From Deltaproteobacteria bacterium (lineage in GTDB: Bacteria > Desulfobacterota > Desulfobulbia > Desulfobulbales > SURF-16): a DNA stretch of 56,000 nucleotides. The position numbers and the translations under genes were made by a program. Location: the NCBI GenBank assembly GCA_016219175.1, contig JACRCD010000005.1, positions 1 to 56,000 on the forward strand, written 5' to 3'. Positions 2,101 through 19,799 of this stretch are shown one piece after another; within the stretch, counting starts at the first letter, position 1; every line of letters begins with the position of its first letter. The notes beneath the pieces are model-generated. The model saw only the letters and a list, made by a program, of their open reading frames with translations. It searched no databases and was not told where the DNA came from.

Positions 2101-2541
2101 TCACCTGGCGGCTGATGGTTCATTGATGGCCAGCCAGTAGATGCCCAGGCGGGACACGGTCTCGACGAACTCGACGAAGTTGACGGGTTTGCGGACAAAG
2201 CTGTTGCAGCCGCTGGCGTAACTCACGAGGCGATCCTGTTCCATGTCCGAGGAGGTGAGGATGACCACCGGCAGCAGGGCCGTGCGTTCATCGGCCCGCA
2301 GGTGGGCCAGCACCTCCAGCCCTGATAACCTGGGCAGGCCGATATCCAGCAGCACCACCGCCGGCAGATCAGGACCCTCGCGACGGGCGAAATCGCCCTG
2401 GCGCCAGAGATAGTCCAGGGCTTGCTGGCCGTCCCGCGCCACGTCGATGCGGTTAGCCAGGTTGGCCTTGCGCAGGGCGCGCAGGGTAAGCATTTCGTCC
2501 TGGGGGTTGTCTTCAACAAGCAGGATGGTCTTGATCGTCAT
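2101..2541 (-). CDS. Single-domain response regulator, CheY/Rcp1-like
   Basis: A stand-alone receiver domain of 146 residues. It has acidic residues ED in LLVEDNPQDE, the phospho-acceptor Asp66 (VVLLDIGLP), a Thr/Ser switch in ILTSSD and the conserved Lys in VRKPVNF. The DNPQDE opening and the long LDYLWRQGDF loop are typical of Rcp1-type regulators, which pair with phytochrome-like HisKA kinases. The start is the ATG at 2541: it overlaps the stop of the upstream kinase (ATGA) and sits 8 nt after GAGGAG. A GTG at 2550 would lie inside that Shine-Dalgarno sequence. It probably shuttles phosphate between the flanking kinases. Confidence 0.92.
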   Translation of the reverse strand: MTIKTILLVEDNPQDEMLTLRALRKANLANRIDVARDGQQALDYLWRQGDFARREGPDLPAVVLLDIGLPRLSGLEVLAHLRADERTALLPVVILTSSDMEQDRLVSYASGCNSFVRKPVNFVEFVETVSRLGIYWLAINEPSAAR

Positions 2542-5333
2542 GATGCGCACTCCTCAATACTATGTTTGTTGCCGGGCAGGGTGAAACGGAAGGTCGCCCC
2601 CCGGCCTGGCGCACTGCTGGCCTCGATACGGCCGCCGTGGCGGTGGATAATGCGCTGCACCGTGGCAAGTCCGATGCCGAGGCCGGGGAACTCGTCCTGC
2701 CGGTGCAGACGCTGGAAGGGTTGGAAGAGCCTGCCCGCATGGGCCATGTCGAAGCCGGCGCCATTGTCAGCCACGCAGAACCAGCGAGCGCAATCCCTCT
2801 CCTCGGCAAAGAGGCGAATGGCGGCCTCGCCGGTGTGGGCGCTGTATTTCCAGGCATTGCCCAGCAGGTTGGCCAGCGCCGCTTCCAGCAGGCGGGCATC
2901 ACCCCGGGCCATAAGCGCGGGTTCCACCTGCACCGCCACCCGGCGTTCGGGTTCGCCCAGCGCCAATTCGGCCAGCAGGCGTTGCGCCATGGCGCTCAAA
3001 TCCACCGTGTCATGCTGCATTTCCCCGCGGCTGGAACGCGAAAGGGCCAGGATGCCGTCGATCAGCTCACCCATGCGCTGGCTGGCCAGGTTGATCTGCT
3101 CCAGGTATTCCCGCGCCTCGCCCGCCAGCTGTGCGCCGAAGTCTTCCGTCAGGGCCTGACTGAAACCGCCCATGGCCCGTAGCGGGGCGCGCAGATCGTG
3201 GGACACGGCATAGGCAAAGCTGTCCAGCTCCTGGTTGGCGGCGCGGAGCTCAGCGGTGCGCTGCTCGACCCGTCGCTCCAGGCCGGCGTTGAGCCGGCGA
3301 ACCTCCTCCTCGGCCCGCCGCCGCTCGGTGACGTCAAAGAAGGTGGCCAGAAGATCCCGGCCCAGGGTGATGCCCGAGGTAAGCATGGTGCGTTCCGTTC
3401 CGTCCCTGCAGGTCACCCGGTATTCCACGGCTTCGATGTCGCCGCCGCTCTCGGCGGCGCGGGTCACGGCGGCCTGCCAGGTTTGACACACCCAGGCGCG
3501 GTACCCAGGCTCCGGATAGGCGAGCTGCCACCACTCGGCCAGGGTCGGCACGTCCTCGCGGCTGTAGCCGAAGGTCTTGATAAAACGGGAGTTGACATCC
3601 ACCAGTACCCCGTCGCTGTTGACGTAACATAAGGGGATGGGAGCCTGGTCAAACAGATTCTGGAAGCGCGCGGCGCTGCGGGCCAGTTCCGCCGCGCTGC
3701 GCCGCCTGGTCGTCAGCAGACCGTCGATGCGCGCCAGCAGTTCATCCACCGCAAAGGGCTTGGTGATGTAGTCCTGCACGCTTTCCTGCAACAGCTTGAC
3801 GCGCAGTTCGTCATCCGCCTTGGCGCTGAGCATGACGATGGGCACATCCGCCATTTCCGCCTGCCGGCGCAGGGCCAGCACCATCTCATCGCCGCTCAGG
3901 CGGGGCATCATCACGTCGCTTAAAATCAGATCGGGCCGCAGGGCCAGGGCCATGTCCAACCCCTGCCGGCCGTCAAAGGCGCTGGCCACCCGATAGTTGG
4001 GCCGCAGGGCCCCGGCGATATAGTCATTCATGTCCGGATTATCTTCCACCACCAGAATCAGGGGGGCAGGGCCGGAGGCGGCAGGCACGGCATGATGAAT
4101 CTCTTTGAGGGGCCGCAGCTCATCGAGCATCTGCAGGCGGATGAGATTGGCGGGATCCGTGGCCGATGCCGGGGCCGCTGCCGGGGCGGCTTCCTCCGGC
4201 GGCCCCGCCGTCAGCGGCACGCTGACCCTGAAGAGCGCCCCGCCGCCAGGGGCCTCGCTCACCCCTACCTCCCCGCCATGCAGCTCAACGAATTCCTTGA
4301 CTATGGCCAGCCCCAGGCCGGTGCCGCCGAAGCGGCGGGAGGCGCCGCCTTCGCCCTGGTGGAAAGGCTCGAAAATGACCTCGCGCATTCCCTCGGACAC
4401 CCCCGGGCCGTTGTCTTGCACCTGGAACAGAGCCCGGCTGTCAGCCACCCGGAGCGAAAGAGCGATCTCGCCCCCGTCCGGCGTGAATTTGAAGGCGTTG
4501 GCCAGCAGGTTAAGCAGAATGCGCTGGACCTTTTCTCCATCCAGCCGGGCGGGCAGACTGGCTGGCGCCGTTACCGCCAGGCCGATGCCCCTTTCCTCGG
4601 CCAGCACCTCGAAATGCGAGGCCATCAAGCGGACCACACCGGCCAGATCGACCGGAGCGCAATTAAGCTGCATGCGGCCCGCCTCCAGCTTGGCCACATC
4701 CAGCAGGTCGGAGACATGCCGGTAGAGCATGCGGGCGTTACGCTCGATCACCTCCAGGTCATGGCGTTCCTCGGGCGGCATGCCGCTCCTGGCCAGACGC
4801 TTGCTCACCGGACCGAGGATCAGGGTCAGCGGCGTGCGCAGCTCGTGGCTGACGTTGGCGAAGAACTGGGTCTTGAGCTCGTCCAGTTCCCTGGTCTTTT
4901 CATAGAGCCGGGTGATCTTCTCGTTAGCGGCCTCGGCCGTCCCCAGCGCCTCATCGGTGCGGCGCATGGCGTGCCGGAGGCGGGCAAAAAAGTAGGCAAA
5001 GAGACTGCCCATGAAGATGAACACCAAAATGGAAAAGGCGGAGGCGGGATTGTTCAGGGTAAAGGAGAAGGCAGGCGGGATGAAGACGTACCAGACCAGC
5101 AGCGCGCCGATGACGGTCGCGGCCAACCCGCCGGCAAGTCCGCCGATCCAGGCGCTGAAAAAGGCCGCGGGGAAAAAGAGAAACCAGACGTAGGGTTTGA
5201 TATAGTCCCACAGCAGCCATTGAACGACGCAGGTGACAAAAGGCAGCAGCACGGACAGAACCAACCTGATCTTCAACGCGTTTCCCTCTCCCTTGGTCCG
5301 GGCCGGCCGGTATGTTGTTGTGAAAGTGTCCAT
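2538..5333 (-). CDS. Membrane hybrid kinase with two kinase modules (DUF4118-HK-REC-PAS-HK)
   Basis: This 931-residue protein starts with about four membrane helices at residues 22-120, resembling the KdpD-type DUF4118 sensor region. A first HisKA (His163, NVSHELRTP) and HATPase (to about 375) follow. Next comes a receiver with Asp473 (LILSDVMMP), then a PAS domain at about 553-670. A second kinase module has His712 (SHDLRAPLRA) and an HATPase with GLGIGLATV. The second HisKA is of the phytochrome-kinase type that usually partners Rcp1-like regulators, and exactly such a regulator is the next gene. The stop overlaps the next start by 4 bp. Two complete kinase cores separated by a receiver in one chain is unusual. 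It is first gene of the operon; the stimulus is unknown. Confidence 0.9.
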   Translation of the reverse strand: MDTFTTTYRPARTKGEGNALKIRLVLSVLLPFVTCVVQWLLWDYIKPYVWFLFFPAAFFSAWIGGLAGGLAATVIGALLVWYVFIPPAFSFTLNNPASAFSILVFIFMGSLFAYFFARLRHAMRRTDEALGTAEAANEKITRLYEKTRELDELKTQFFANVSHELRTPLTLILGPVSKRLARSGMPPEERHDLEVIERNARMLYRHVSDLLDVAKLEAGRMQLNCAPVDLAGVVRLMASHFEVLAEERGIGLAVTAPASLPARLDGEKVQRILLNLLANAFKFTPDGGEIALSLRVADSRALFQVQDNGPGVSEGMREVIFEPFHQGEGGASRRFGGTGLGLAIVKEFVELHGGEVGVSEAPGGGALFRVSVPLTAGPPEEAAPAAAPASATDPANLIRLQMLDELRPLKEIHHAVPAASGPAPLILVVEDNPDMNDYIAGALRPNYRVASAFDGRQGLDMALALRPDLILSDVMMPRLSGDEMVLALRRQAEMADVPIVMLSAKADDELRVKLLQESVQDYITKPFAVDELLARIDGLLTTRRRSAAELARSAARFQNLFDQAPIPLCYVNSDGVLVDVNSRFIKTFGYSREDVPTLAEWWQLAYPEPGYRAWVCQTWQAAVTRAAESGGDIEAVEYRVTCRDGTERTMLTSGITLGRDLLATFFDVTERRRAEEEVRRLNAGLERRVEQRTAELRAANQELDSFAYAVSHDLRAPLRAMGGFSQALTEDFGAQLAGEAREYLEQINLASQRMGELIDGILALSRSSRGEMQHDTVDLSAMAQRLLAELALGEPERRVAVQVEPALMARGDARLLEAALANLLGNAWKYSAHTGEAAIRLFAEERDCARWFCVADNGAGFDMAHAGRLFQPFQRLHRQDEFPGLGIGLATVQRIIHRHGGRIEASSAPGRGATFRFTLPGNKHSIEECAS

Positions 5334-8546: not shown

Positions 8547-9785
8547 ATGTCCTCTCCATTATCTTTCATAGCGTTAGTTCGTGTTCTCCTTGTAACATCT
8601 TTTTTCTTGGGAACATCAATCAGCTCTTCTCTATCGCCACCTTGCTCGGCAGGGCAATACACCGAATCAGCTCATGGCGACGGCACCTTCGGTGTCTCCA
8701 ACCGGGCAACTGGTTTTGCCAGCGGCAACTGTGCCCACTGTCACGAATTTCACGCCAGCTCCGGCGGCAGCGAACCCGCACCGGTGGACGGCGCAGCCTC
8801 ACCTTTTACCCTGTTCACGGAAAATTTTAACACCTCCGCGACAGTGGCTCCTTATGCTGAATCGGACAATATATGTTTCTATTGCCACAGAGGAACTGGT
8901 TGTTCTTTCCAGCAAGTGACCAACTATGATTACAGCCGTTCCTTCGCAGGCTATACCATATCCACCCTCACGAATATCCTGGACACCTTCAATCAGACTT
9001 CCTACCATAATCTCTACGACATCTGGAATTTTTATAAAGACAAAAGCGGGGCGGATTTTTTCAATGATTTGTCGAATCCGTGTGTTGCGTGTCACAATCC
9101 CCATCTGGCAAAAAAGAACAGCGCCGACCCAACCGATCCGGCCCAGACCTGCGTATCCAAACCATCCGATCACGAAACCCTCTGGGGAGACGGGGCCAGC
9201 GAACAGATCAACGACTACACCGCAGCCTACCAGGCACCCTTTTTTTATAATTCAAGCGTCGTTTACGAACCTGGCGGCTCAGCCACCTCAAATGGTTCAC
9301 TAACCCCTGACTACATCACCTTCTGCACCGATTGCCATAACACGACAAATACCATCTACAGCACAACCCTGGTCCGTAACCTTCGCTCGATCAACTGGAG
9401 TACATCAGGTGATGTGCATGGTGGCGGTTCAGCCAGGGACGCCTATTCCAACAAGGGAACAATTAAAGCCCCATACGACGAGGCCAGCGGGCCGAATTAT
9501 GTGCTTTCCTGCCTGGATTGCCATGAACCTCATGGTTCCAGTAGCAAATATCTGCTCCGGCGCGAGGTGAATGGAGTCGCGGTTCCGCAACTCACCGTGG
9601 ATACGAATACCGACTCTGCCTGGTTGACCTTTTGTGCCGCATGCCACGATGTCACTGTCGAGGGCGTCGGCAACCCATGTGGCAGTTCCGTACACGGCGG
9701 ATATCCCATGCCCGGCACCTCATGCGTAAACTGCCATTACCATGGCAGAACAATGTGTCCTCCTCCCTTCTGCAAAACCATGTAG
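8547..9785 (+). CDS. Exported seven-heme c-type cytochrome
   Basis: A 412-residue protein with an N-terminal signal sequence (about residues 1-38) and seven CXXCH heme-attachment motifs: CAHCH, CFYCH, CVACH, CTDCH, CLDCH, CAACH and CVNCH. Several are followed by EPHG or NPH, as in the doubled-CXXCH cytochromes of Geobacter and Desulfobacterota. It is therefore a periplasmic or outer-surface multiheme electron carrier. The ATG at 8547 is preceded by CCAGGA. It stands alone: no porin, NHL-repeat or other cytochrome gene is adjacent. The last residues (CPPPFCKTM) are cysteine-containing but hold no further heme motif. Confidence 0.9.
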   Translation: MSSPLSFIALVRVLLVTSFFLGTSISSSLSPPCSAGQYTESAHGDGTFGVSNRATGFASGNCAHCHEFHASSGGSEPAPVDGAASPFTLFTENFNTSATVAPYAESDNICFYCHRGTGCSFQQVTNYDYSRSFAGYTISTLTNILDTFNQTSYHNLYDIWNFYKDKSGADFFNDLSNPCVACHNPHLAKKNSADPTDPAQTCVSKPSDHETLWGDGASEQINDYTAAYQAPFFYNSSVVYEPGGSATSNGSLTPDYITFCTDCHNTTNTIYSTTLVRNLRSINWSTSGDVHGGGSARDAYSNKGTIKAPYDEASGPNYVLSCLDCHEPHGSSSKYLLRREVNGVAVPQLTVDTNTDSAWLTFCAACHDVTVEGVGNPCGSSVHGGYPMPGTSCVNCHYHGRTMCPPPFCKTM

Positions 9786-9994: not shown

Positions 9995-12229
9995 TCACTC
10001 CCGATCCAGTATTTCCCGTATTTTTTGAGCGAGCAGACTGGGAATCAACGGTTTATTGAGAAACGAGACATTCGGCTCCAGCACTCCTTGCCGGGCAATG
10101 ATGTCATCGGTATAACCCGACATGAACAGCACCTTGATGCGGGGGTGCATTTCCCGCAGCGTCTCGGCGAATGCCCGGCACGACATGCCGGGCATGATCA
10201 CGTCGGTCAGGAGCAAATCAATTTTTCCGCCACTATTTTTACAGATCTCCACCGCATCCTCGCCGCAGGAGGCCTTCATGACCGAATATCCCAATGGCGT
10301 CAAGACCTCGAAGACAATATCGGGAATCGAGGCTTCATCATCAACAACCAGCACGGTTTCAGTCCCTCGCGGCAGATCGACGCCGGGGGGTGCGTCCATT
10401 CCATCCGCCGCGGCTTTCGTTTCGGGAAAATAGATCTTGAACGTCGTGCCGCAACCAAGTTCACTGTAGACATAAATATGCCCCTTGAGCTGCTTCATGA
10501 TGCCGTATACCGTGGAGAGACCCAATCCGGTCCCTTCCCCTTTCGCCTTGGTGGTGAAGAAGGGGTCGAAGATCTTTTCCTTTATCCCCGGGCTCAGGCC
10601 ATGGCCGGTATCGGTTACACCAAGCATCACATAGGTTCCCGGCAACACTTCGGCATGGGTCCGGCAATACTCCTTGTCAAATTCAAAGGTGTCCGTCTCG
10701 ATGAGCAGACTCCCCCCGTCCGGCATGGCATCCCTGGCATTGACGGCCAGGTTCATGATGATCTGCTCGACCTGCCCGGGGTCGGCCTTGATGTTGCCGG
10801 CGACCTCGCGAAGATTCAATCGTATCTCGACATTTTCACCGATCAACCGTCCCAGCATTTTGGTCATATTCTGGATCAGATTATTCAGGTTGAAAATCCT
10901 CATTTCCATTACCTGTTTGCGGCTGAAGGCCAGGAGCTGCCTGGTGAGATTTGAGGCACGCCGGGCCGCATCGGTAATGACTTTTATGCGGGGTCCCAGG
11001 GGATGATCTTCCGGCTGCCCCATCATACAGACCTCGCAGTAGCCGAGGATTACCGTCAAAATGTTATTGAAATCATGCGCCACTCCGCCGGCCAACAGGC
11101 CCAGGCTCTCCAGCCTCTGGGTCTGGTGCAGGGCGTCTTCCATTTTTTTCTTTTCCGTTATATCGACAAAGTGGCCGTCAAAACCGGAAATGACCCCATC
11201 CGCCCCGTATTCCGGGTAAAGGGAAAGCATGATGATGTGCTGGTTATGCCCCCGGTCAGATATCACCGTTTCAATCCCGGACAGCGTCCCGGCAATGGCA
11301 ACATTCCGCACATTGTCCCTGACATCTTCCGCCAGCAAGCCGAGAAAATCACCGCCAAGGTCGCACATCTCCTCAAGCTTGCGGTTGCCTTCCATGATCC
11401 TGAAATTGATGTCCAGCCGGAAAAGAGCATGTTCCACCCGCTCGAAAAGCTCACTGATTTTTTTCCGCGAGGCCATCAGCCGCAGCTCCCGGTCCCGGAT
11501 GGCTTGACTCATCTTATTGAATTCGGCCGCGAGCTGGCCGATTTCACCGGCCGTGTCAATCCGGGGAACCTCGGGGTATTCACCTTCCTGCAGGTCTTTT
11601 ACCGCGGAAAAAAGGGCATTGAGAGGTTTCAGGGCGACATTGAGAAGCACATTGACCAGAAGAAAGGCAGCCGCAATCAGAAGCCCGGCAAACAGCACGC
11701 CGTTCAGGATTATTTTGCGCGTGGTTTCCAACATGACCTTTTTTGAAAGGCCGATCCTGACCCAGCCGATATGATCCTTGACCAGCCTGCTTTGGTTCGC
11801 CTCCTCGAAGATATCGATATCCCGCTCGGACCGCATGGAAAAGACGGGCCCGTAGAATTCGAAATATCCGGCATGTTCACGGATGAAAACCGGTTCCCGG
11901 GAGGAGATATCCGCGGGCGGCTTCTGGCCCACCGCCATCCCGACATGGGCGATGATGTCGAATTCAGGGGTGAAGAAGGTGACAAACGGCACGTTTTTTA
12001 TTTCGCAGAGGGAAGAGGCGGCGCTGTTGACGATCTCCGGATTCTCCGTCAAGAACGGCAGTTCGGCGCTTTTGGCGGCGACGGCTGCCAGTATTTCCCC
12101 CCTTTTTACAATCTCTTCACGGAGGATGTTCTGCTCACCCCGGATGGCTGCCAGCGTATAGGCGATGGAAATGACGATAATGATCGGGCAGAAGAGCAGT
12201 AAGGCTTTTGTCTTAAAGGATAATCGCAT
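9995..12229 (-). CDS. Membrane hybrid histidine kinase (periplasmic sensor-HAMP-PAS-HK-REC)
   Basis: A 744-residue hybrid kinase. A first membrane helix (about 8-28) and a second (about 174-198) flank a periplasmic sensor domain of roughly 145 residues, single-Cache-like in size. A HAMP linker (200-252), a PAS-like domain (about 258-358), a HisKA with His385 (GGVAHDFNN) and an HATPase follow. The C-terminal receiver has Asp676 (LLTDVIMP). The receiver has MPGMSC where MPGMNG is usual. It is the last gene of a TonB-receptor, binding-protein, kinase operon, 32 bp after the binding protein. It is a close architectural paralogue of the kinase at 15772-18363. Confidence 0.92.
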
Positions 12230-12261
12230 GGAGATGATGTCCTCGTGTCACTGCCGGAAAT

Positions 12262-13161
12262 TCATGGATAAACCTGAGTAGCTTTTTTCAGCATTGCCTC
12301 CGGAACGGCGATCCCCATTTTATCGGCGGTGTTCCGGTTGATATATAAATTAAAATGCCGGGGCGGCAAGGCTTGGTTCCGCATGGAATTTTGCTGTTTG
12401 AGGGCCGCCTCCGCCATCATGCCGAGACTCCGGCCGGATGATTCGGGATCGAACTCCAGCGCAAACAGCGATCCCTCGCGGACATGTTTTTTAGAGATGC
12501 CCAGCAGAGGCACTTTTTCGCGAAAGGAAAAGAGATAAATCTCCTCAAGGGCCTTATTGGTGAGCAGGGAAAGATCCGGCAGCAGCAGCACCGCATCCGC
12601 CTTTTCGAGATTCTTGACGGTTTCAACGAATTCATACGTATTCGTGACCTCATAAACGGTCACCTGCGAGGGATCAGCGTCGTTCAGCAGCCGGACAACC
12701 CCGGGACTGGCGATAACGCAGATATTCTTGAGATGCGGCAGATAGGTGCTCACCAAGTGGAGGTATTCCCTGATCGGCGTACCCATGTACATCCCGGCGG
12801 TATTGGGACGGTCGATAGGGGGGGGCAGGACAACCAGGTCATAGAGGACGATGACCGAGGGGGGCAGGGTCAAGGCCTGGTCGATGGATGGCCGGCCCAG
12901 GGCGATAACGGCCCGGGCCGCATGCTGCTCAACAAGGGAGGCCAGCTTGCCGTCCACCTCGTCCGGCGCATAAACCACCACCTTCCGCCCCATGATTTCC
13001 TCGATGCCGGCAATCACCTGGACCACGGGTTTAAGCCGCGTATCGCCAACCACCAGCACCTCGTTGTTTCCCCTCGCATCGGCGCCGCAGATACAGGGAA
13101 CGGCAAGGAGAAGCACAACAAAACGGATGAATTGGTTTTTCTTAATTAACAAGCGATTCAT
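12262..13161 (-). CDS. Periplasmic ABC-type substrate-binding protein (PF04392-like), orphan
   Basis: A 299-residue protein with a signal peptide (MNRLLIKKNQFIRFVVLLLA). It then follows the two-lobed fold of the ABC_sub_bind family: VLVVGDTRLKPVVQVIAGIE, and late motifs (FNLYINRNTADKMGI) shared with the second binding protein at 18382-19350. The ATG at 13161 is preferred over one at 13188 because GAGGGTG lies a few bases upstream. It sits between a TonB receptor and a kinase, with no permease or ATPase gene nearby. A sensory role handing ligand occupancy to the kinase is inferred. Confidence 0.82.
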   Translation of the reverse strand: MNRLLIKKNQFIRFVVLLLAVPCICGADARGNNEVLVVGDTRLKPVVQVIAGIEEIMGRKVVVYAPDEVDGKLASLVEQHAARAVIALGRPSIDQALTLPPSVIVLYDLVVLPPPIDRPNTAGMYMGTPIREYLHLVSTYLPHLKNICVIASPGVVRLLNDADPSQVTVYEVTNTYEFVETVKNLEKADAVLLLPDLSLLTNKALEEIYLFSFREKVPLLGISKKHVREGSLFALEFDPESSGRSLGMMAEAALKQQNSMRNQALPPRHFNLYINRNTADKMGIAVPEAMLKKATQVYP

Positions 13162-13228
13162 TTTCACCCTCAGCGCCTGAATAGTCATCGAGGTAGAAGG
13201 ATGGGAAGCCTCCGCGCGGTTGTCGCCG

Positions 13229-15115
13229 CTAAAAGGCTATCCGTAAACCGGCCTCGAGCCAACGATCCGGATTTTCAAACACATAGTGCCAATAATGTCT
13301 GCCGTTAAAGAGATTACGGGCGCTCACAAAAAAATTCGTGGTGGTGTTTTCGGTGACGAATATATCCTTGTTATAATGAAGGTCCCAGATCATGTCGTCA
13401 TAACTGGCGCCGGTCGAGGCTTCATTGGCATCAAGCCAGCGGTAATAGCCGATCAGCAGCAGGTTGCCGAGCCGCCCGGCCTGGTATTGCAATTTCAGGT
13501 TCAGGCCATAGGCATCGTCACTGATCCCGCCATAGGGCTCCAGCCGGACATAGGTAAAGCTGCAACCGGCCGTAAGATTGTCAAGGGGGCTCGTGGCGGC
13601 GCCCAGTTCGAAGCCGGTTCTTTCCGATTCTCCCCCGTTCGTAAAGAGTCCGGCCTCGTCGTTCAAAAACCAGCTTTCGTCCTGATGATGATAGAAGATG
13701 TCCGCCTTCAGGTGGAGGTTGCGGAAACGGGATGATTCGATGCCGGCCTGCAGGGACCAGATGTCCTCCGGTTCCAGATCCGGATAGCCGGCATACCCCG
13801 GGGTACCCACCACCAGCCCGATGGCGGGCCGGATGAAGCCGCGCGCGGCCGTGGCCCGCAAAAGGGTCTGCTCATCGATTGGATAGGTCAGCCCCAGACT
13901 CGGACTGACGATGTCATCGGTAGCGGCGCCGGCGATGGACAGGTGGTCGTAGCGCAGGCCGGGGGTGACGGACAACTTGTCCAGCCGTAAGGTGTCATTG
14001 AGGTAAACCGCCCATTCCTTCCTGGTTTCGGTCCCCCATTCGACCGGCGCGGCAGTCGCGAAAAAATAGGAACTGTCATTCTCCCCCCGGCTCAAATCCA
14101 TGCCAAGGAGCAGGGTGTGATTCCCCTGTTCCCAGGTGAGACTGGAGCTGCCCCCATAAAGCCCATTGTCCAGGAGCCGGCTTTCCAGATGTGCGCCGGA
14201 GGTCATTGTTTCAAAAGAATTTTGCCGCTCCTGGCCGAGAAAGTACAGATCAAGGCTGAGCCGGAGAGCAGAGGAGAGGCCGGCCTCAAGTTTGCCGGTA
14301 ACCAGATAATTTTTTATATCCGACAGATAGCTCCGGTCATATGCAGCCCACTCAAAGTCTTTATAATCGGGATGCCAGTACCCCGCGGTGAAAGTCACCG
14401 CGACCTTCTCGGTCAGCGCCGAGGCGAATTTGCCATAGAAACTTTTGTTTTCGAAATACTTGTCTCCCACCAGCCCGTCGGAGTCCATGGAACCGCCGTA
14501 CAGGTAATAGCCCTGCTTGCCGTGCCCGGCCGCCGCTTCGGCGCGATACTCCCGGCTATTCCCCTCCCCCTGGGAGCCATACAACGTGCCGGTGGGACGG
14601 TTCCCGCTTCCCGCCGGCTTGGTGACGATGTTGATGACCCCGCCCAGGGCCGAGCCCCAGGCGGATGAGGAGGGGCCCTTGAGCACCTCGATGCGGTCGA
14701 TGATCTGAACCGGGATACCGCCCGTCTCGGGCCAGCCGGAATCGACATCGTTTAAGCGCACCCCGTCCAGAAGAATGAGAACGTGCTCATAATCCGAACC
14801 ATGGATACTCAAGGCCGCCATGCCGCCGAAATCACCGCCCCGGAAAGCGACCCGCACGCCGGTCACGGTCCGCAGGATCTCGTTGACCGAATGGGCATTC
14901 ATGGCCCGGATCTCCTCGGCCGTGATCACCGACATGTTCTCGGCCACGTGCCGTAATCTGGTGGGCCGCCGGGTGGGGGTTTCGACCAGCAGCTCCTCCC
15001 AATCGTAGTAAAGGAGCAGCTCAGCGGTGGTTTTCGATTCGAGTTCGGCAAGGACGACGGCAAAGCAGGGAGAAGCGATGAACAGCAAGGCGGCCATGAC
15101 ACTTATGATTTTCAC
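13229..15115 (-). CDS. TonB-dependent outer-membrane receptor
   Basis: A 628-residue TonB-dependent receptor, about the usual size. It has a signal peptide (MKIISVMAALLFIASPCFA). A plug domain spans about residues 55-175, with VITAEEIRAMNAHSVNEILR, VLILLDGVRLND and IEVLKGPSSSAWGSALGGVI. A 22-strand-type barrel follows and ends in an aromatic-rich C-terminus (WLEAGLRIAF). The start is a GTG with GGAGG eight bases upstream. It is the first gene of the operon with a binding protein and a hybrid kinase. The substrate is unknown; no cobalamin riboswitch or Fur box was recognised upstream. Confidence 0.93.
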   Translation of the reverse strand: MKIISVMAALLFIASPCFAVVLAELESKTTAELLLYYDWEELLVETPTRRPTRLRHVAENMSVITAEEIRAMNAHSVNEILRTVTGVRVAFRGGDFGGMAALSIHGSDYEHVLILLDGVRLNDVDSGWPETGGIPVQIIDRIEVLKGPSSSAWGSALGGVINIVTKPAGSGNRPTGTLYGSQGEGNSREYRAEAAAGHGKQGYYLYGGSMDSDGLVGDKYFENKSFYGKFASALTEKVAVTFTAGYWHPDYKDFEWAAYDRSYLSDIKNYLVTGKLEAGLSSALRLSLDLYFLGQERQNSFETMTSGAHLESRLLDNGLYGGSSSLTWEQGNHTLLLGMDLSRGENDSSYFFATAAPVEWGTETRKEWAVYLNDTLRLDKLSVTPGLRYDHLSIAGAATDDIVSPSLGLTYPIDEQTLLRATAARGFIRPAIGLVVGTPGYAGYPDLEPEDIWSLQAGIESSRFRNLHLKADIFYHHQDESWFLNDEAGLFTNGGESERTGFELGAATSPLDNLTAGCSFTYVRLEPYGGISDDAYGLNLKLQYQAGRLGNLLLIGYYRWLDANEASTGASYDDMIWDLHYNKDIFVTENTTTNFFVSARNLFNGRHYWHYVFENPDRWLEAGLRIAF

Positions 15116-15551
15116 CAGCCGGTCCTCCAGGACATTGTACAGAAAGTTGACACGAATTGGCGGTTCCAGCGGCTAGCAAACGATTGAATGACCTCACGAC
15201 AGCCGGCGACTAATAATACATATCTGAAATTTAGAGTTCCGCTTCGCAAACGGTTGATTGTTGCTCGGGAGACAGATTTAATTTTTCTTTCTTGAGCATC
15301 ATCAATTCGTTGCATCGCGACCCCGTTGAGCTGTGAAAATCATTCTGTCCCCGGCGGGGGAAAGAAAAATAAAATCAGTCCCCTTCCACCTGAGATAATG
15401 CGAAACTCTAAACTCCAGAATAAATATATCATTTTTTGGGAATTTACTTACCACTATTTTTCAGCCACTCAGGACAAACTTTTTATCAGCGCGCCGGCCT
15501 GGCGCACGAGAAAAAAATGCAAAAAATGGCTGCGGCCGACAACCCACCACT

Positions 15552-15593
15552 CTTAGCCATCCAGGCTTTGCCGCCGGCTTTTTACGAGTTCAG
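15552..15593. repeat. Partial R1 repeat (one end only)
   Basis: This matches the right end of the R1 palindrome family: CTTAGCCATCCAGGCTTT followed by CTTTTTACGAGTTCA. The left arm and central part are missing, so this is a decayed or truncated copy. It lies about 30 bp before the 117-bp inverted-repeat element. Confidence 0.6.
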
Positions 15594-15622
15594 CATATCC
15601 TGGGGGCTTAGAAATTTTAAAA

Positions 15623-15739
15623 ATACCGTTTATCTGTGTCGTCATGCCAGCATGTTTTTAGCTGGCATCCAGTGATGATCTGGATTCCGGCTTAAACCAT
15701 GCCGGAATGACGGACCATTCGAGACGTGATAAACGGTAT
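15623..15739. mobile_element. 117-bp element with perfect 12-bp terminal inverted repeats
   Basis: The ends ATACCGTTTATC (15623-15634) and GATAAACGGTAT (15728-15739) are perfect inverted repeats. The interior is itself palindromic, with CATGCCAGCATG, GGATTCCGG and CCATGCCGGAATGACGG. No protein is encoded. The structure fits a non-autonomous MITE-like element. No clear target-site duplication is visible, and only one copy occurs in the window. Confidence 0.6.
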
Positions 15740-15771
15740 ATCAACAAATTGCTGAATTCCTTATGGAAATC

Positions 15772-18363
15772 TCATGAAGGTTTACGATCCAGGATCTCCC
15801 GGATCTTTCTGGTCAGCATGCTCGGCACCAATGGTTTGTTGATGAAATAACAGCCGGGCGTGAGCACGCCGTGATGGGTGATGATATTGTCCGTGTAGCC
15901 TGACATGAACAGGACACGGGTCTCCGGATGGCTTCCGGCCAGTGCCTCGGCAAGTTTTTTGCCGTTCATGCCGGGCATGATCACATCGGTGATCAGCAGA
16001 TCAATCTTGCACTCCAGGGTTTTGCATAATTCCAGGGCCTGTTCGCCGCTGCCGGCAAGCAGGACATCGTAGCCGAGCGGCTCCAGGGTATCGCGCACCA
16101 GATCGCGAATGGAGGATTCATCATCGACCACCAGCAGCTTCTCCGTACCTCCGACCAGGGCATCCACGGCCTTGACCTCAATCGCTTCACATTGCTCGTT
16201 GATTTCCGGGAAAAAGATCTTGAAGGTCGTGCCGCAGCCGACCTCGCTGTAGACAAATATATGTCCTTTCATCTGTTTGACGATGCCGTAGACGGTGGAG
16301 AGCCCGAGGCCGGTTCCCTTGCCCCGTTCCTTGGTGGTGAAAAACGGATCGAATATATGGCTCTTGACTTCCGGGGTCATGCCGGTGCCGGTATCCGTGA
16401 CACTGAAGGCGACATAGGAACCGGGCACGATTTCAGCATGGGTCCGGCAGTATTTCTCATCCAGTTCGACATTGTAGGTCTCAAAAAACAGCTTTCCCCC
16501 GTCGGGCATGGCGTCGCGGGCATTGACGGCCAGATTCATGATAATCTGCTCCACCTGACCGGGGTCCGCCAGGATATTGCCGACCGGCTTATCCAGATTC
16601 GACTCCATTTCAATATGTTCACCGATCAGCCTTCCCAGCATTTTCAACATATTGGCAATCAGGCTGTTCAAGTTGACCACCTTCATCTCCATGACCTGCT
16701 TGCGGCTGAAGGCCAGCAGCTGGCGGGTGAGCGCCGCCGCCCGGCGGCCGGCGTCGTGGATGGCCTTGATTTTCTGGTACAGGGGATTGGCCTCGTGCAC
16801 TTGCATCAGGATAATCTCACTGTAACCGATAATGGTGGTGAGCAGATTGTTGAAATCATGCGCCACTCCGCCGGTGAGAATGCCGATCGTCTCCAGTTTC
16901 TGCGCCTGCAGCAGCTGCGCTTCAAGACTCTTTTTTTCCGTAACATCAATATTATACTCGATCACCTGGGAGACTTGGCCATTGCTGCCGAAAATCGGGT
17001 AACCGTAGATTTCAAAAATCTTTTCACGACCGTTGTCCTGCCGGTGAACATGTTCCACCACCACCGGTTTCCCTGTCTTTTTTATTTCGGCGATGGGGCA
17101 TGGATGCTGGGCGCCGCGGCAGGGGGAATCGGCATGGTGGGTAAGTTTGTAACAGGTGTCAGCCGGTAAAAAGGCCCCGAAACTCGCGGCGGAATTGGCC
17201 AGCTTGATCGTGTAATTTTCCGCGTCGATCACATAGAACGGCTGGGTCATGGATTCAATGACGTTGCGGACGAAATTTTTTTCCTCCTCAACCGCGTTGA
17301 TGGTGGCCATGAGCTTGGTTGTCATGGTGTTAAAGGCCAGGGAGAGATCTTCCAGTTCATCGAGTCTTTTCGATGCCGCCCGCCGGGAGAAGTCCCCCTT
17401 GCTGATCGCCCTGGCCGTCCCGGCCAGGTCCTCAATCGGCTTGACAATCTGCCGGACCACGATAACCCCCAGGGTAAGGGCGCCGAAGATGATGAAGAAG
17501 AGGAAGCAGGCAATGCCGAACAGGGATTTGTTAATATGCCTCAGCGCTTCGTCAGCCGGCATCTCGGTGACGAAATTGATAAACTGGCTGCCGAATGCCA
17601 TCTTCTGGGACGCCACAACCGCTTTTTCCCCACTGATGCCGGTCATGATGCTCGGCTGCGCCGGGGCCGCGAAATAGGTGTTCTTGAGAACGAGAGAACG
17701 ATTGGGATGGACGATAACCCGCCCATCGAGATCGGTGAGATAGGCGATGCCGCGCCTGCCGATCTGCATCCTGCCAACCAACTGCCACATATACTGCAAT
17801 TTTATTTCCAAAGTCAGAATATTCCTGAGCGCCAGGGTTTCCAGATCTCTTATCGGGAAACTCATCTTGATCAGGGGTTCCCCGGACTCACTGCTGAAAT
17901 AAACCGGACTGTAAAAGATGTCTTCCCGCTGGACGACGTTTCTGTATTCGGGCAGATCCGACCGATCGCGCAGATCACTGTCGGTGATCAGTTCTTTCTG
18001 GGAAATCCGGATGGTTTCTTTTCCTTCCGCATCAAGAAGGGACATCTCGGTAAATATCGACTCGTGCATACTGTCGCGGCCGGAGGAAAAAAACTTGGAC
18101 AGCATCAGTTTCTGCCGGTCAGGCGTCATATCCGGCAGATAATTGGTTTTCAGCAGGGTCCGCACGATGGTTTCCTGTTCATGCAGAAAGAAGAAGATAT
18201 TGTCCGCGGCCAGGCTCGTCATCTGCTGCTGCAATCTTTTGACCTGTTTTTTTTCAACAACATAATTCTGCCAGGAAAGAAAGCCGGCGAGTAACACGAG
18301 CGGCAAGACAAAAAAACAGAGCAAGGGGATCAGCAGCCAGGTTCTGATGCTGTTTTTAAACAT
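15772..18363 (-). CDS. Membrane hybrid histidine kinase (dCache-HAMP-Cys-rich PAS-HK-REC)
   Basis: An 863-residue hybrid kinase. Membrane helices at about 8-30 and 280-303 flank a periplasmic domain of about 250 residues, sized and patterned like a double Cache domain (SLLDAEGKETIRIS, AYLTDLDGRVIVHP). A HAMP domain (305-358) precedes a PAS domain (365-475) that carries three cysteines, C404, C415 and C422, in CYKLTHH...PC...HPCP. HisKA His502 (GGVAHDFNN), an HATPase and a receiver with Asp793 (LITDVIMP) complete it. It lies 18 bp after a binding-protein gene, repeating the arrangement at 9995-13161. It probably senses that binding protein or a small periplasmic ligand. Confidence 0.92.
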   Translation of the reverse strand: MFKNSIRTWLLIPLLCFFVLPLVLLAGFLSWQNYVVEKKQVKRLQQQMTSLAADNIFFFLHEQETIVRTLLKTNYLPDMTPDRQKLMLSKFFSSGRDSMHESIFTEMSLLDAEGKETIRISQKELITDSDLRDRSDLPEYRNVVQREDIFYSPVYFSSESGEPLIKMSFPIRDLETLALRNILTLEIKLQYMWQLVGRMQIGRRGIAYLTDLDGRVIVHPNRSLVLKNTYFAAPAQPSIMTGISGEKAVVASQKMAFGSQFINFVTEMPADEALRHINKSLFGIACFLFFIIFGALTLGVIVVRQIVKPIEDLAGTARAISKGDFSRRAASKRLDELEDLSLAFNTMTTKLMATINAVEEEKNFVRNVIESMTQPFYVIDAENYTIKLANSAASFGAFLPADTCYKLTHHADSPCRGAQHPCPIAEIKKTGKPVVVEHVHRQDNGREKIFEIYGYPIFGSNGQVSQVIEYNIDVTEKKSLEAQLLQAQKLETIGILTGGVAHDFNNLLTTIIGYSEIILMQVHEANPLYQKIKAIHDAGRRAAALTRQLLAFSRKQVMEMKVVNLNSLIANMLKMLGRLIGEHIEMESNLDKPVGNILADPGQVEQIIMNLAVNARDAMPDGGKLFFETYNVELDEKYCRTHAEIVPGSYVAFSVTDTGTGMTPEVKSHIFDPFFTTKERGKGTGLGLSTVYGIVKQMKGHIFVYSEVGCGTTFKIFFPEINEQCEAIEVKAVDALVGGTEKLLVVDDESSIRDLVRDTLEPLGYDVLLAGSGEQALELCKTLECKIDLLITDVIMPGMNGKKLAEALAGSHPETRVLFMSGYTDNIITHHGVLTPGCYFINKPLVPSMLTRKIREILDRKPS

Positions 18364-18381
18364 GAAGGCGTCCTTTTTTGC

Positions 18382-19350
18382 TCAACGGATGATTTCATCC
18401 GCCTGCAGAAGAATATCGTTGGCGATCTTCAGGCCCAGCTTATCCGCGGTATTGAGGTTGATGCCGAGAAAGAATTCGGCTGTTTCCGAGGGAACGTCCG
18501 CTGGAGATGCCCCACGCAGCACTTGGGCGGCGAGGCGGCTCGCCTGCCGGCCGATCCGGTAAAGATCCGGACAGTAGGAGACCAGAACCCCCTCCGAACA
18601 TTTTTCAATTGCCGCGGCCGTGGGCAATTTCCGGAGCAAGGCGGCCTGGGCGATCTTGTCCGCATGGGTGGAAATGAGCATGGAATGTAAAAGGATAACA
18701 GCATCAGCGTCTTCAGGCATGGATGCGAGTGCGGCATCGAGTTCTTCCTCGGAACGGACTTCCCCCTCCAGAATCGTCACCCCGAGGGACCGGGCGGCTT
18801 GCCGCAGAGAGGCCAGACTCTGGCTGGCGGCCTTGGTGTCAAAGCAGATCGGCACATAGACCCGTTTTATGCCCGGGACCAGGGCCAGAAGCCATTCAAG
18901 GGTTTTCGGCACGCTGCCGCAGATCTGTACCCCGGTGAGATCGCCCCCCGGTTCAGAAAGGGATTTGATGATGCCGGATTCAACCGGATCATGGATGGCA
19001 AACACGGCCGGGATATTTCCGCCGGCAATCGCCTTCATGGTTTTCTGGGTTGCGGGAGTGGTGGCGGTGAAGATGAGGCTCATCTTCCTGGCAACCATAT
19101 CGTGCAGCGCCGCCTCTATCTGATCTTCCTGCTCGCACTTTGTATAGATGACATTGTCCCCTTCCTGAAAACCGAAGGAAGACAGCCCCTCCATGAATCC
19201 CCGGACAATTTCCGCTGATCCCTTATTTGGATTGACGATGCCGACCAGGTAGTTCCGGTTGTGAAAAGAACTGAAGCGGGACCAGGCGACATAGCCGATC
19301 CCGGCCAGGAAAGTCAGCGTCAGGAGCAAGGCGGTAATACGAGTTTTCAT
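18382..19350 (-). CDS. Periplasmic ABC-type substrate-binding protein (PF04392), orphan
   Basis: A 322-residue protein of the ABC_sub_bind family. It has an N-terminal hydrophobic export signal or anchor (about 7-24). Its family motifs include VGIVNPNKGSAEIVRGFMEG, IFTATTPATQKTMKA and GVQICGSVPKTLEW, and it ends with FFLGINLNTADKLGLKIAND. Members bind small ligands such as aromatic or amino-acid-like compounds. No ABC permease or ATPase gene is adjacent; the next gene, 18 bp on, is a dCache hybrid kinase. A sensory partnership is inferred. Confidence 0.88.
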   Translation of the reverse strand: MKTRITALLLTLTFLAGIGYVAWSRFSSFHNRNYLVGIVNPNKGSAEIVRGFMEGLSSFGFQEGDNVIYTKCEQEDQIEAALHDMVARKMSLIFTATTPATQKTMKAIAGGNIPAVFAIHDPVESGIIKSLSEPGGDLTGVQICGSVPKTLEWLLALVPGIKRVYVPICFDTKAASQSLASLRQAARSLGVTILEGEVRSEEELDAALASMPEDADAVILLHSMLISTHADKIAQAALLRKLPTAAAIEKCSEGVLVSYCPDLYRIGRQASRLAAQVLRGASPADVPSETAEFFLGINLNTADKLGLKIANDILLQADEIIR

Positions 19351-19799
19351 CTTTTACCTCTGAATCCATTATGTTCATTCGCCACCACCCCTGCTTCTTC
19401 CCCTAGCAAACGAACCAGCTCAACCGGTTATCGCACCCTCTCATTTTCCCGGCACTCGACGGCATACAGGCGTTCCTTATTTTGTAAAATAAATAACATG
19501 GACTTTCAAGTGAATACGAGATTTCAATTCGATAAAGAAAAACGGCATCGCCGTTAATCACCTTCGCGATTGTTAATGGAGGCTCTTGCAAAATAAGCAA
19601 AAGAGTGGTTCCTGTCATTTCGACCGAAGGGAGAAATCCTATAAAATCATGGCCATCAAAGATTCCTCACTACGTTCGGAATGACACGCAGGTTCATTTT
19701 GCAAGAGCCTCAATGGTGAAGAAATTAGATTGCAAACAAAAGCGGGACAATGCTATGCTTTTCTTAAGAAAAAATTTTTAAGAACACCGGGACGAAACG
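19351..19799. other. Intergenic region containing a 133-bp MITE
   Basis: No gene is seen in this 449-bp stretch. It holds the divergent promoter regions of the binding-protein/kinase operon and of the gene at 19800, plus the 133-bp mobile element at 19579-19711. The sequence between the element and 19800 is AT-rich. Confidence 0.6.
19579..19711. mobile_element. 133-bp MITE, family R2, copy 1
   Basis: The element begins GAGGCTCTTGCAAAAT and ends ATTTTGCAAGAGCCTC, a 16-bp perfect terminal inverted repeat. It is flanked by AATG on both sides (19575-19578 and 19712-19715), a candidate 4-bp target-site duplication. The interior contains TCATTTCGACCGAAGG and TTCCTCACTACGTTCGGAAT. A copy of exactly the same length lies inverted at 39670-39802. 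It has no coding capacity and must depend on a transposase encoded elsewhere. Confidence 0.85.

Follow-up and report, generated by a model that had tools for sequence, protein, structure and literature searches.

About ten cases of solute-binding proteins (SBPs) acting on sensor kinases have been characterised, and in model bacteria 13 of 22 SBP families are known to act on some receptor (available portion of PMC9602780). In AioX-AioS, as with ArxX and ArrX (arsenic oxyanions), the gene of a transporter-free SBP lies beside that of a sensor kinase and the protein is thought to be the kinase ligand, and LuxP and TorT are further periplasmic SBPs acting in signalling (available portion of PMC5908839). 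Here, two gene modules of similar design are analysed in a Deltaproteobacteria bacterium of the order Desulfobulbales (assembly GCA_016219175.1); the window, i.e. the whole stretch of DNA that was analysed, comprises 56,000 nucleotides (contig JACRCD010000005.1, positions 1 to 56,000 of the forward strand). In each module, the gene of a PF04392-family SBP (SBP1 and SBP2) precedes that of a membrane hybrid histidine kinase (HK1 and HK2), and module 1 also contains a gene for a TonB-dependent receptor (TBDR; Table 1). Judged from sequence comparisons, we consider it about 70% probable that each module forms a two-protein co-sensor receptor composed of the SBP and the adjacent kinase.

Module layout and the pairing of PF04392 genes with kinases

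The gene order of module 1 is TBDR-SBP1-HK1, with gaps of 40 bp and 32 bp, and that of module 2 is SBP2-HK2, with a gap of 18 bp and without a TBDR of its own. A preliminary description, made from the sequence alone, had reported a PF04392 SBP followed at 18-32 bp by a membrane hybrid kinase with a C-terminal receiver in both modules, a TonB receptor at the head of the first and no ABC transporter in either; gene map and Pfam agree with this layout, the TBDR gene lies 40 bp upstream of SBP1, and no ABC gene adjoins SBP1 or SBP2 in the gene map. The positions 12262 and 18382 assigned there to the SBP genes are their stop ends only. SBP2 matches nearly the full PF04392 profile (139.6 bits; Pfam cut-off 25.9), and its AlphaFold model (mean pLDDT, the predicted local distance difference test, of 95.5; 35 sequences) has its best PDB matches in 3LFT, 3LKV and CD0873 (6HNJ, 6HNI). 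The PF04392 fold is assigned to SBP2 by profile and model, and to SBP1 by a partial profile match (47.4 bits, profile positions 107-292 only). No Pfam domain was found at E<=0.01 in the extracytoplasmic part of HK1 (~145 residues, with transmembrane helices placed by eye), and for the window TBDR Pfam lists only Plug and barrel families and no STN domain.

Table 1. Genes of the two modules, with positions in the window.
Feature	Position	Strand	Assignment
Module 1 TBDR	13229..15115	minus	Plug + barrel, no STN; heads module 1
SBP1, PF04392 binding protein	12262..13188	minus	Pfam; TonB/kinase-linked clade, long branch; signal sequence by eye
HK1, membrane hybrid kinase	9995..12229	minus	HAMP-HisKA-HATPase-receiver; extracytoplasmic domain without name
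SBP2, PF04392 binding protein	18382..19350	minus	Pfam; kinase-linked clade; AlphaFold model nearest 3LFT, 3LKV, CD0873
HK2, membrane hybrid kinase	15772..18363	minus	dCache_1-HAMP-PAS_4-HisKA-HATPase-receiver

The source genome (G000; 98.4% complete, 97 contigs, 4.2 Mb) contains ten matches to PF04392, nine of them free-standing; the tenth, below the Pfam cut-off, lies in one protein with HisKA_3 and HATPase. A kinase follows seven of the nine free-standing genes, six of them directly and one across a PhnD-type gene. As this proportion is reached with 116 HATPase matches in 4.2 Mb, the pairing exceeds chance. The remaining two genes (on C36 and C73) adjoin a PhnD-type SBP gene, that on C36 also a TBDR gene. 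In locus L010 (G000:C54), genes for a multihaem cytochrome and an MtrB/PioB-like porin are succeeded by those for a PF04392 SBP, a PhnD-type SBP and a kinase, in this sequence, and the order SBP-PhnD-kinase recurs in L052, L057, L062, L069, L091, L102 and L106; a CxxCH motif, seen by eye in the extracytoplasmic part of the L010 kinase, suggests a haem-bearing redox sensor.

Permeases or ATPases encoded elsewhere for these SBPs were to be looked for according to the preliminary description. PF06541 has no match in the source genome, and PF02653, which we take to supply the permeases of known PF04392 importers, has two, both in one Liv cluster that also encodes a Peripla_BP_6 protein and a pair of ABC ATPases, one of which has a branched-chain amino acid domain. 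A dedicated SBP permease was thus not found among PF06541 and PF02653, the only two permease families searched.

Among relatives, PF04392 is present in 33 of 38 genomes (the source genome included) and across the phylum in 76 of 148. Neighbours were counted in five sets of SBPs (Table 2), excluding fusions and partial PF04392 matches of <200 residues. The relatives' sample consists of 80 stretches among the matches listed, namely all 25 listed for five congeners and the rest mostly by score, which left out many weaker or long-frame PF04392 places; the phylum sample consists of 40 stretches among the matches listed, each from a different genome. The conserved pairing in related genomes on which the preliminary description had made its proposal depend was recovered, with a kinase within 200 bp in 50 of 80 cases and a permease in 1 of 80, and in none of the five sets was a kinase and a permease found beside the same SBP. 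Taken together, the counts indicate that SBP-kinase pairing predominates in this order, whereas outside it the pairing is just one arrangement among several. Overlaps of 4 bp between SBP and kinase genes are frequent, which suggests translational coupling. Since genes were called with home-made profiles seeded from the source genome, and ABC ATPases with motifs, distant kinases, receptors or transporters may have escaped detection; the ABC ATPase motif overlooked at least one Liv ATPase. In one pair of the extra loci, the gap of -1051 stems from an overlapping-frame call and is not a real gene boundary.

Table 2. Neighbours of PF04392 SBP genes in five sets (HK, histidine kinase).
Set	HK <=200 bp downstream	HK <=1.5 kb	TBDR <=700 bp	PhnD-type adjacent	Permease	No scored neighbour
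Source genome, 9 free-standing SBPs	6	7	3	3	0	0
Relatives, 80 free-standing SBPs	50	57	29	18	1	7
Phylum sample, 39 free-standing SBPs	13	14	9	0	7	12
SBP2-like genes of named genomes, 94 SBPs from 69 loci	25	27	0	0	5	61
Extra loci, 13 free-standing SBPs	11	11	3	0	0	2

The nearest SBP2 relatives in named genomes include metagenome-assembled genomes of Desulfurivibrionaceae and Desulfobulbaceae; no SBP1 relatives were found in the scan of named-genome contigs, and a plasmid search with SBP1 yielded two weak partial matches. Other arrangements were also encountered. Neighbours of PF04392 genes include a GGDEF protein (L242) and chemoreceptors (L151, L163). Double PF04392 proteins (~540-740 aa) stand directly before kinases in L196, L197, L198, L199, L200 and L202, and a PF04392-like domain is joined to a histidine kinase core in one protein in L016 (6094-7995), L206 (3593-5563) and L207 (3940-5892). 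In four congeners, PF04392 is fused to PBP_like_2 before a hybrid kinase (L060 970-2706, which was scanned, and similarly L049, L055 and L067). In L171, L203 and L205, a permease is fused to one or two PF04392 domains beside an ABC ATPase, apparently forming self-contained importers.

Divergence of the binding proteins and co-variation with the kinases

In a tree of 130 SBPs (quick method), all nine permease-linked rows fall inside one clade of 11 rows (support 82 in the Shimodaira-Hasegawa-like approximate likelihood-ratio test, SH-aLRT). SBP2 lies in a clade of 24 rows (18 kinase-linked, six unassigned), nearest to L087, L085 and L086, and SBP1 in a clade of 67 rows (support 98) whose neighbours are TBDR, kinase and PhnD-type genes, with zero permeases. 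Residue conservation was compared between 13 permease-linked and 99 kinase-linked SBPs: 44 columns are near-invariant in the former, and 13 of these 44 survive in fewer than 20 of the latter. Columns mostly lost (SBP2 numbering, with the number of kinase-linked SBPs keeping them) include H42 (1), A97 (0), N224 (2) and A257 (3), and fold positions such as G140 (98), P159 (94), G267 (95) and N298 (94) stay. Both SBP1 and SBP2 are without equivalents of H42, A97, N224 and A257; some residues of the permease-linked type are retained (T98, P99 and D121 in SBP2, D223 in SBP1).

Co-variation was analysed with score distances over 93 SBP-kinase pairs, dividing the kinase into an N-terminal part (first 190 residues), a 90-residue linker and the core. 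SBP distances correlate with the N-terminal part at 0.877, with the linker at 0.543 and with the core at 0.380. The partial correlation with the N-terminal part given the core is 0.855 (largest value of 1000 permutations 0.09), and that with the core given the N-terminal part is 0.02. After thinning to 76, 63, 47 and 27 rows, the former amounts to 0.84, 0.82, 0.78 and 0.63 and the latter to 0.07, 0.07, -0.01 and -0.14; an earlier variant with alignment distances (94 pairs) gave 0.857. SBP divergence thus tracks the sensor end of the kinase and not its core, a pattern that supports dedicated co-sensing.

Within the 22 genomes of the family (source genome included), SBP1 has one ortholog, 67% identical, in G018 (another genus), and it is followed after 37 bp by an ortholog of HK1 (71% identical over 744 residues). 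Besides G018, the first 180 residues of HK1 gave weak matches at ten places, four of which are kinases encoded immediately downstream of PF04392 genes (G010:C190, G020:C62, G008:C45, G014:C172); for the other six, no PF04392 gene was found on the same contig among the matches listed.

The two modules had been regarded as a side-by-side duplication with diverged sensor domains. Identity amounts to 30% over 112 residues for SBP1 and SBP2 and to 48% over 582 residues for HK1 and HK2, and in a tree of kinase cores HK1 pairs with its G018 ortholog (support 99) and the partners of HK2 are kinases from a different family (82). As the SBPs belong to different deep clades and the kinase cores group apart, a local duplication of the modules is rejected and this part of the preliminary description is abandoned. 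Instead, kinase cores that are related to each other are combined with unlike sensor halves and with SBPs from different clades.

Conservation of the pairing within the order, its mutual exclusion with permeases and the co-variation of SBP and kinase N-terminus lend support to the proposal, already made in the preliminary description, that these SBPs have been repurposed as co-sensors and serve the adjacent kinases. In this model, the PF04392 SBP, no longer part of an importer, would capture its ligand in the periplasm, and the loaded SBP would dock on the extracytoplasmic domain of the adjacent kinase and set its phosphorylation state, whereupon the kinase receiver may hand the phosphate on to a further partner. 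The PF04392 family appears to be split into one transport branch and large kinase-linked branches, and consequently many genomes probably contain sensors that have been annotated as parts of importers.

The TonB receptor of module 1 and the link of its clade to geopeptide loci

The window TBDR has matches at E<=1e-40 in 25 of 38 genomes, and at least 26 of the 31 non-window match pieces, two of which represent one place in G026, have a PF04392 gene within 5 kb. An NCBIfam scan of six genes downstream of such family TBDRs placed every one of them above the 400-bit cut-off of TIGR04280, the geopeptide radical SAM maturase. Throughout the 38 genomes, 23 of 24 above-cut-off maturases have a family TBDR within 1 kb; conversely, a maturase lies within 1 kb of 23 of 30 non-window family TBDRs (second G026 piece dropped). 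In a tree (quick LG+G4) built from 50 TBDRs of these loci, the window TBDR, with a branch length of 0.91, falls inside a clade of 27 rows (SH-aLRT 100) that comprises 19 maturase-linked rows and eight others, the window TBDR included.

All 18 counted gaps between TBDR and maturase genes contain a short open reading frame (ORF) that encodes a cysteine motif, CC in most cases (shuffled gaps: mean 1.13, at most 4; antisense: 0). This pattern was written after inspection of 16 of the 18 gaps, L068 and L100 being the other two; an earlier, narrower pattern missed L068, L100, L012 and one L050 gap, and two or three further gaps (L088, L162, L156) were left out of the count. The only above-cut-off maturase of the source genome lies on C49, together with a precursor-like ORF, an SBP and kinases. 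The family TBDR gene of this locus (L012 8435-10330; G000:C49:60943-62826) contains an in-frame TAG and has intact relatives in other genomes.

As the TBDR clade of the window is elsewhere mostly found beside a geopeptide maturase and a short cysteine ORF, a modified peptide resembling geopeptides, alone or complexed with metal, is the likeliest guess for the ligand of module 1, albeit a tentative one. The TBDR would first bring into the periplasm a ligand that, for its size or scarcity, porins could not supply, and feed it to SBP1, and the peptide might be made by another locus, such as that with the maturase on C49 of the same genome, or by neighbours. Module 1 may represent an orphan receptor whose ligand is of the peptide type. 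In its widest form, this reading describes whole-envelope peptide sensing that would be common in the order, in which a radical-SAM-modified, cysteine-bearing geopeptide passes via TonB receptor and PF04392 SBP to the kinase and module 1 acts as an orphan listener; we put it forward as a speculative scheme with less than even odds. With one kinase-linked branch tied to a TBDR clade and to geopeptide maturases, an orphan peptide family gains a candidate receptor chain; if this holds, the modules hint at a route for detecting peptides outside the cell.

Several observations weigh against the co-sensor model or its extension to the outer membrane. Regarding the SBPs, the branch of SBP1 is long (1.77), which makes its exact placement unsure, and SBP1 alone could not be modelled by AlphaFold (pLDDT 41.6). 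The pairing is weaker outside the order, where a kinase lies within 200 bp in 13 of 39 cases of the phylum sample and in 25 of 94 of the named SBP2-like genes, 61 of the latter being without any scored neighbour. Nearest-neighbour agreement is hardly better for SBP and kinase N-terminal part (0.49) than for SBP and core (0.45). Three SBPs encoded near AgtS and AruS showed, according to PMC11113362 (available portion), no evidence of a role in activating them. Regarding the receptor, no TBDR was found in the 19.5 kb around the SBP1-HK1 ortholog pair of G018, which carries two TBDRs of the window's family on a different contig; 7 of 30 non-window family TBDRs are without a maturase within 1 kb; and neither a maturase-like gene beside the window TBDR nor a precursor ORF in its flanks was found. 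A search for sigma-54 promoters gave no signal, with 2 of 27 regions before TBDRs and 0 of 18 TBDR-maturase gaps at p<=0.05 (lowest p in the gaps 0.06).

The route from outer membrane via periplasm to kinase that the preliminary description had drawn consequently holds for the TBDR family, with its proximity to PF04392 genes, and is weaker for module 1, because the lone SBP1-HK1 ortholog has no adjacent TBDR. Another account of module 1, to which we give somewhat less than even odds, is that the co-sensor is real and the TBDR an ordinary nutrient or metal receptor, placed there by chance or for regulation and not feeding SBP1, as that ortholog, the absence of maturase and peptide ORF from the window and the likeness of the plug to BtuB and siderophore receptors would lead one to expect. 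However, the predominance of family members near PF04392 genes (at least 26 of 31) and the spacing of the TBDR, SBP1 and HK1 genes, only 40 and 32 bp apart, argue against this account. TBDRs commonly import metal chelates. The peptide linked to this clade may accordingly be a metallophore whose cysteines bind metal, the complex being imported by the TBDR and the SBP-kinase pair reporting metal supply instead of a peptide signal; the cysteine motif of the short ORFs and the plug matches would fit, yet no metal transporter was noticed beside the loci, whose neighbours were not systematically scanned, and the window module has no peptide gene; we consider this reading unlikely. Least probable is that the SBPs are importer proteins borrowing a permease encoded elsewhere while the kinases merely regulate uptake genes: both SBPs keep the PF04392 fold, the family includes importers (13 scored free-standing SBPs have a permease neighbour) and SBPs near kinases need not activate them (available portion of PMC11113362), but the source genome offers only Liv-type PF02653 and no PF06541 among the families searched, permease-linked SBPs form a separate clade, no SBP of the five sets has both a kinase and a permease, the kinase-linked SBPs have largely lost 13 of the 44 columns that are near-invariant in the transporter type, and the SBP tracks the N-terminus of the kinase, not its core.

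The surroundings of the modules contain further features. Inverted repeats with arms of ~19-24 bp at 15223-15750, in the 656-bp stretch between the modules, and at 19576-19714, upstream of SBP2, look like remnants of small mobile elements or insertions. A multihaem CxxCH protein is encoded at 8547-9785 on the opposite strand, right beside module 1, and two more hybrid kinases at 99-2198 and 2538-5333, the core of the former being related to those of HK1 and HK2. No RNA element was found near the TBDR; in the whole window, Rfam yields a tRNA as its single match at gathering score.

Comparison with described systems

Hybrid kinases are also the partners in LuxP-LuxQ and TorT-TorS, which to our knowledge employ binding-protein families other than PF04392 and no TonB receptor. 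In systems of the FecA-FecR type, as in module 1, the gene of an outer-membrane TBDR is linked to a signalling gene; the window TBDR differs in having no STN domain, and an SBP and a histidine kinase stand in place of the anti-sigma and sigma factors. Geopeptide loci (TIGR04280) resemble module 1 in that TBDRs of the same clade lie beside maturases and PF04392-kinase genes, whereas the window copy has neither maturase nor precursor ORF. SP1069 (3LFT), VC_1101 (3LKV) and CD0873 (6HNI), the top matches of the SBP2 model, share the PF04392 fold with SBP2 and have been seen with the bound aromatic amino acids tryptophan, phenylalanine and tyrosine (available portion of PMC6816091). Unlike importers of the SP1069/CD0873 type, the modules have no permease or ATPase neighbours and have lost many permease-linked residues. 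By analogy, the closest working counterpart of the modules is AioX-AioS, which differs from them in using a PhnD-type SBP instead of PF04392 and a separate response regulator, and for which no TonB receptor is mentioned in the available portion of PMC5908839.

No description of PF04392-kinase pairs or of a geopeptide receptor was found in the open-access literature, which does not imply their absence from print. To call the modules an undescribed system, as was done at first, is nevertheless an overstatement, since kinases activated by SBPs follow an established principle; the apparent novelty lies in the recruitment of the PF04392 family as the SBP and in its tie to geopeptide-type TonB receptors.

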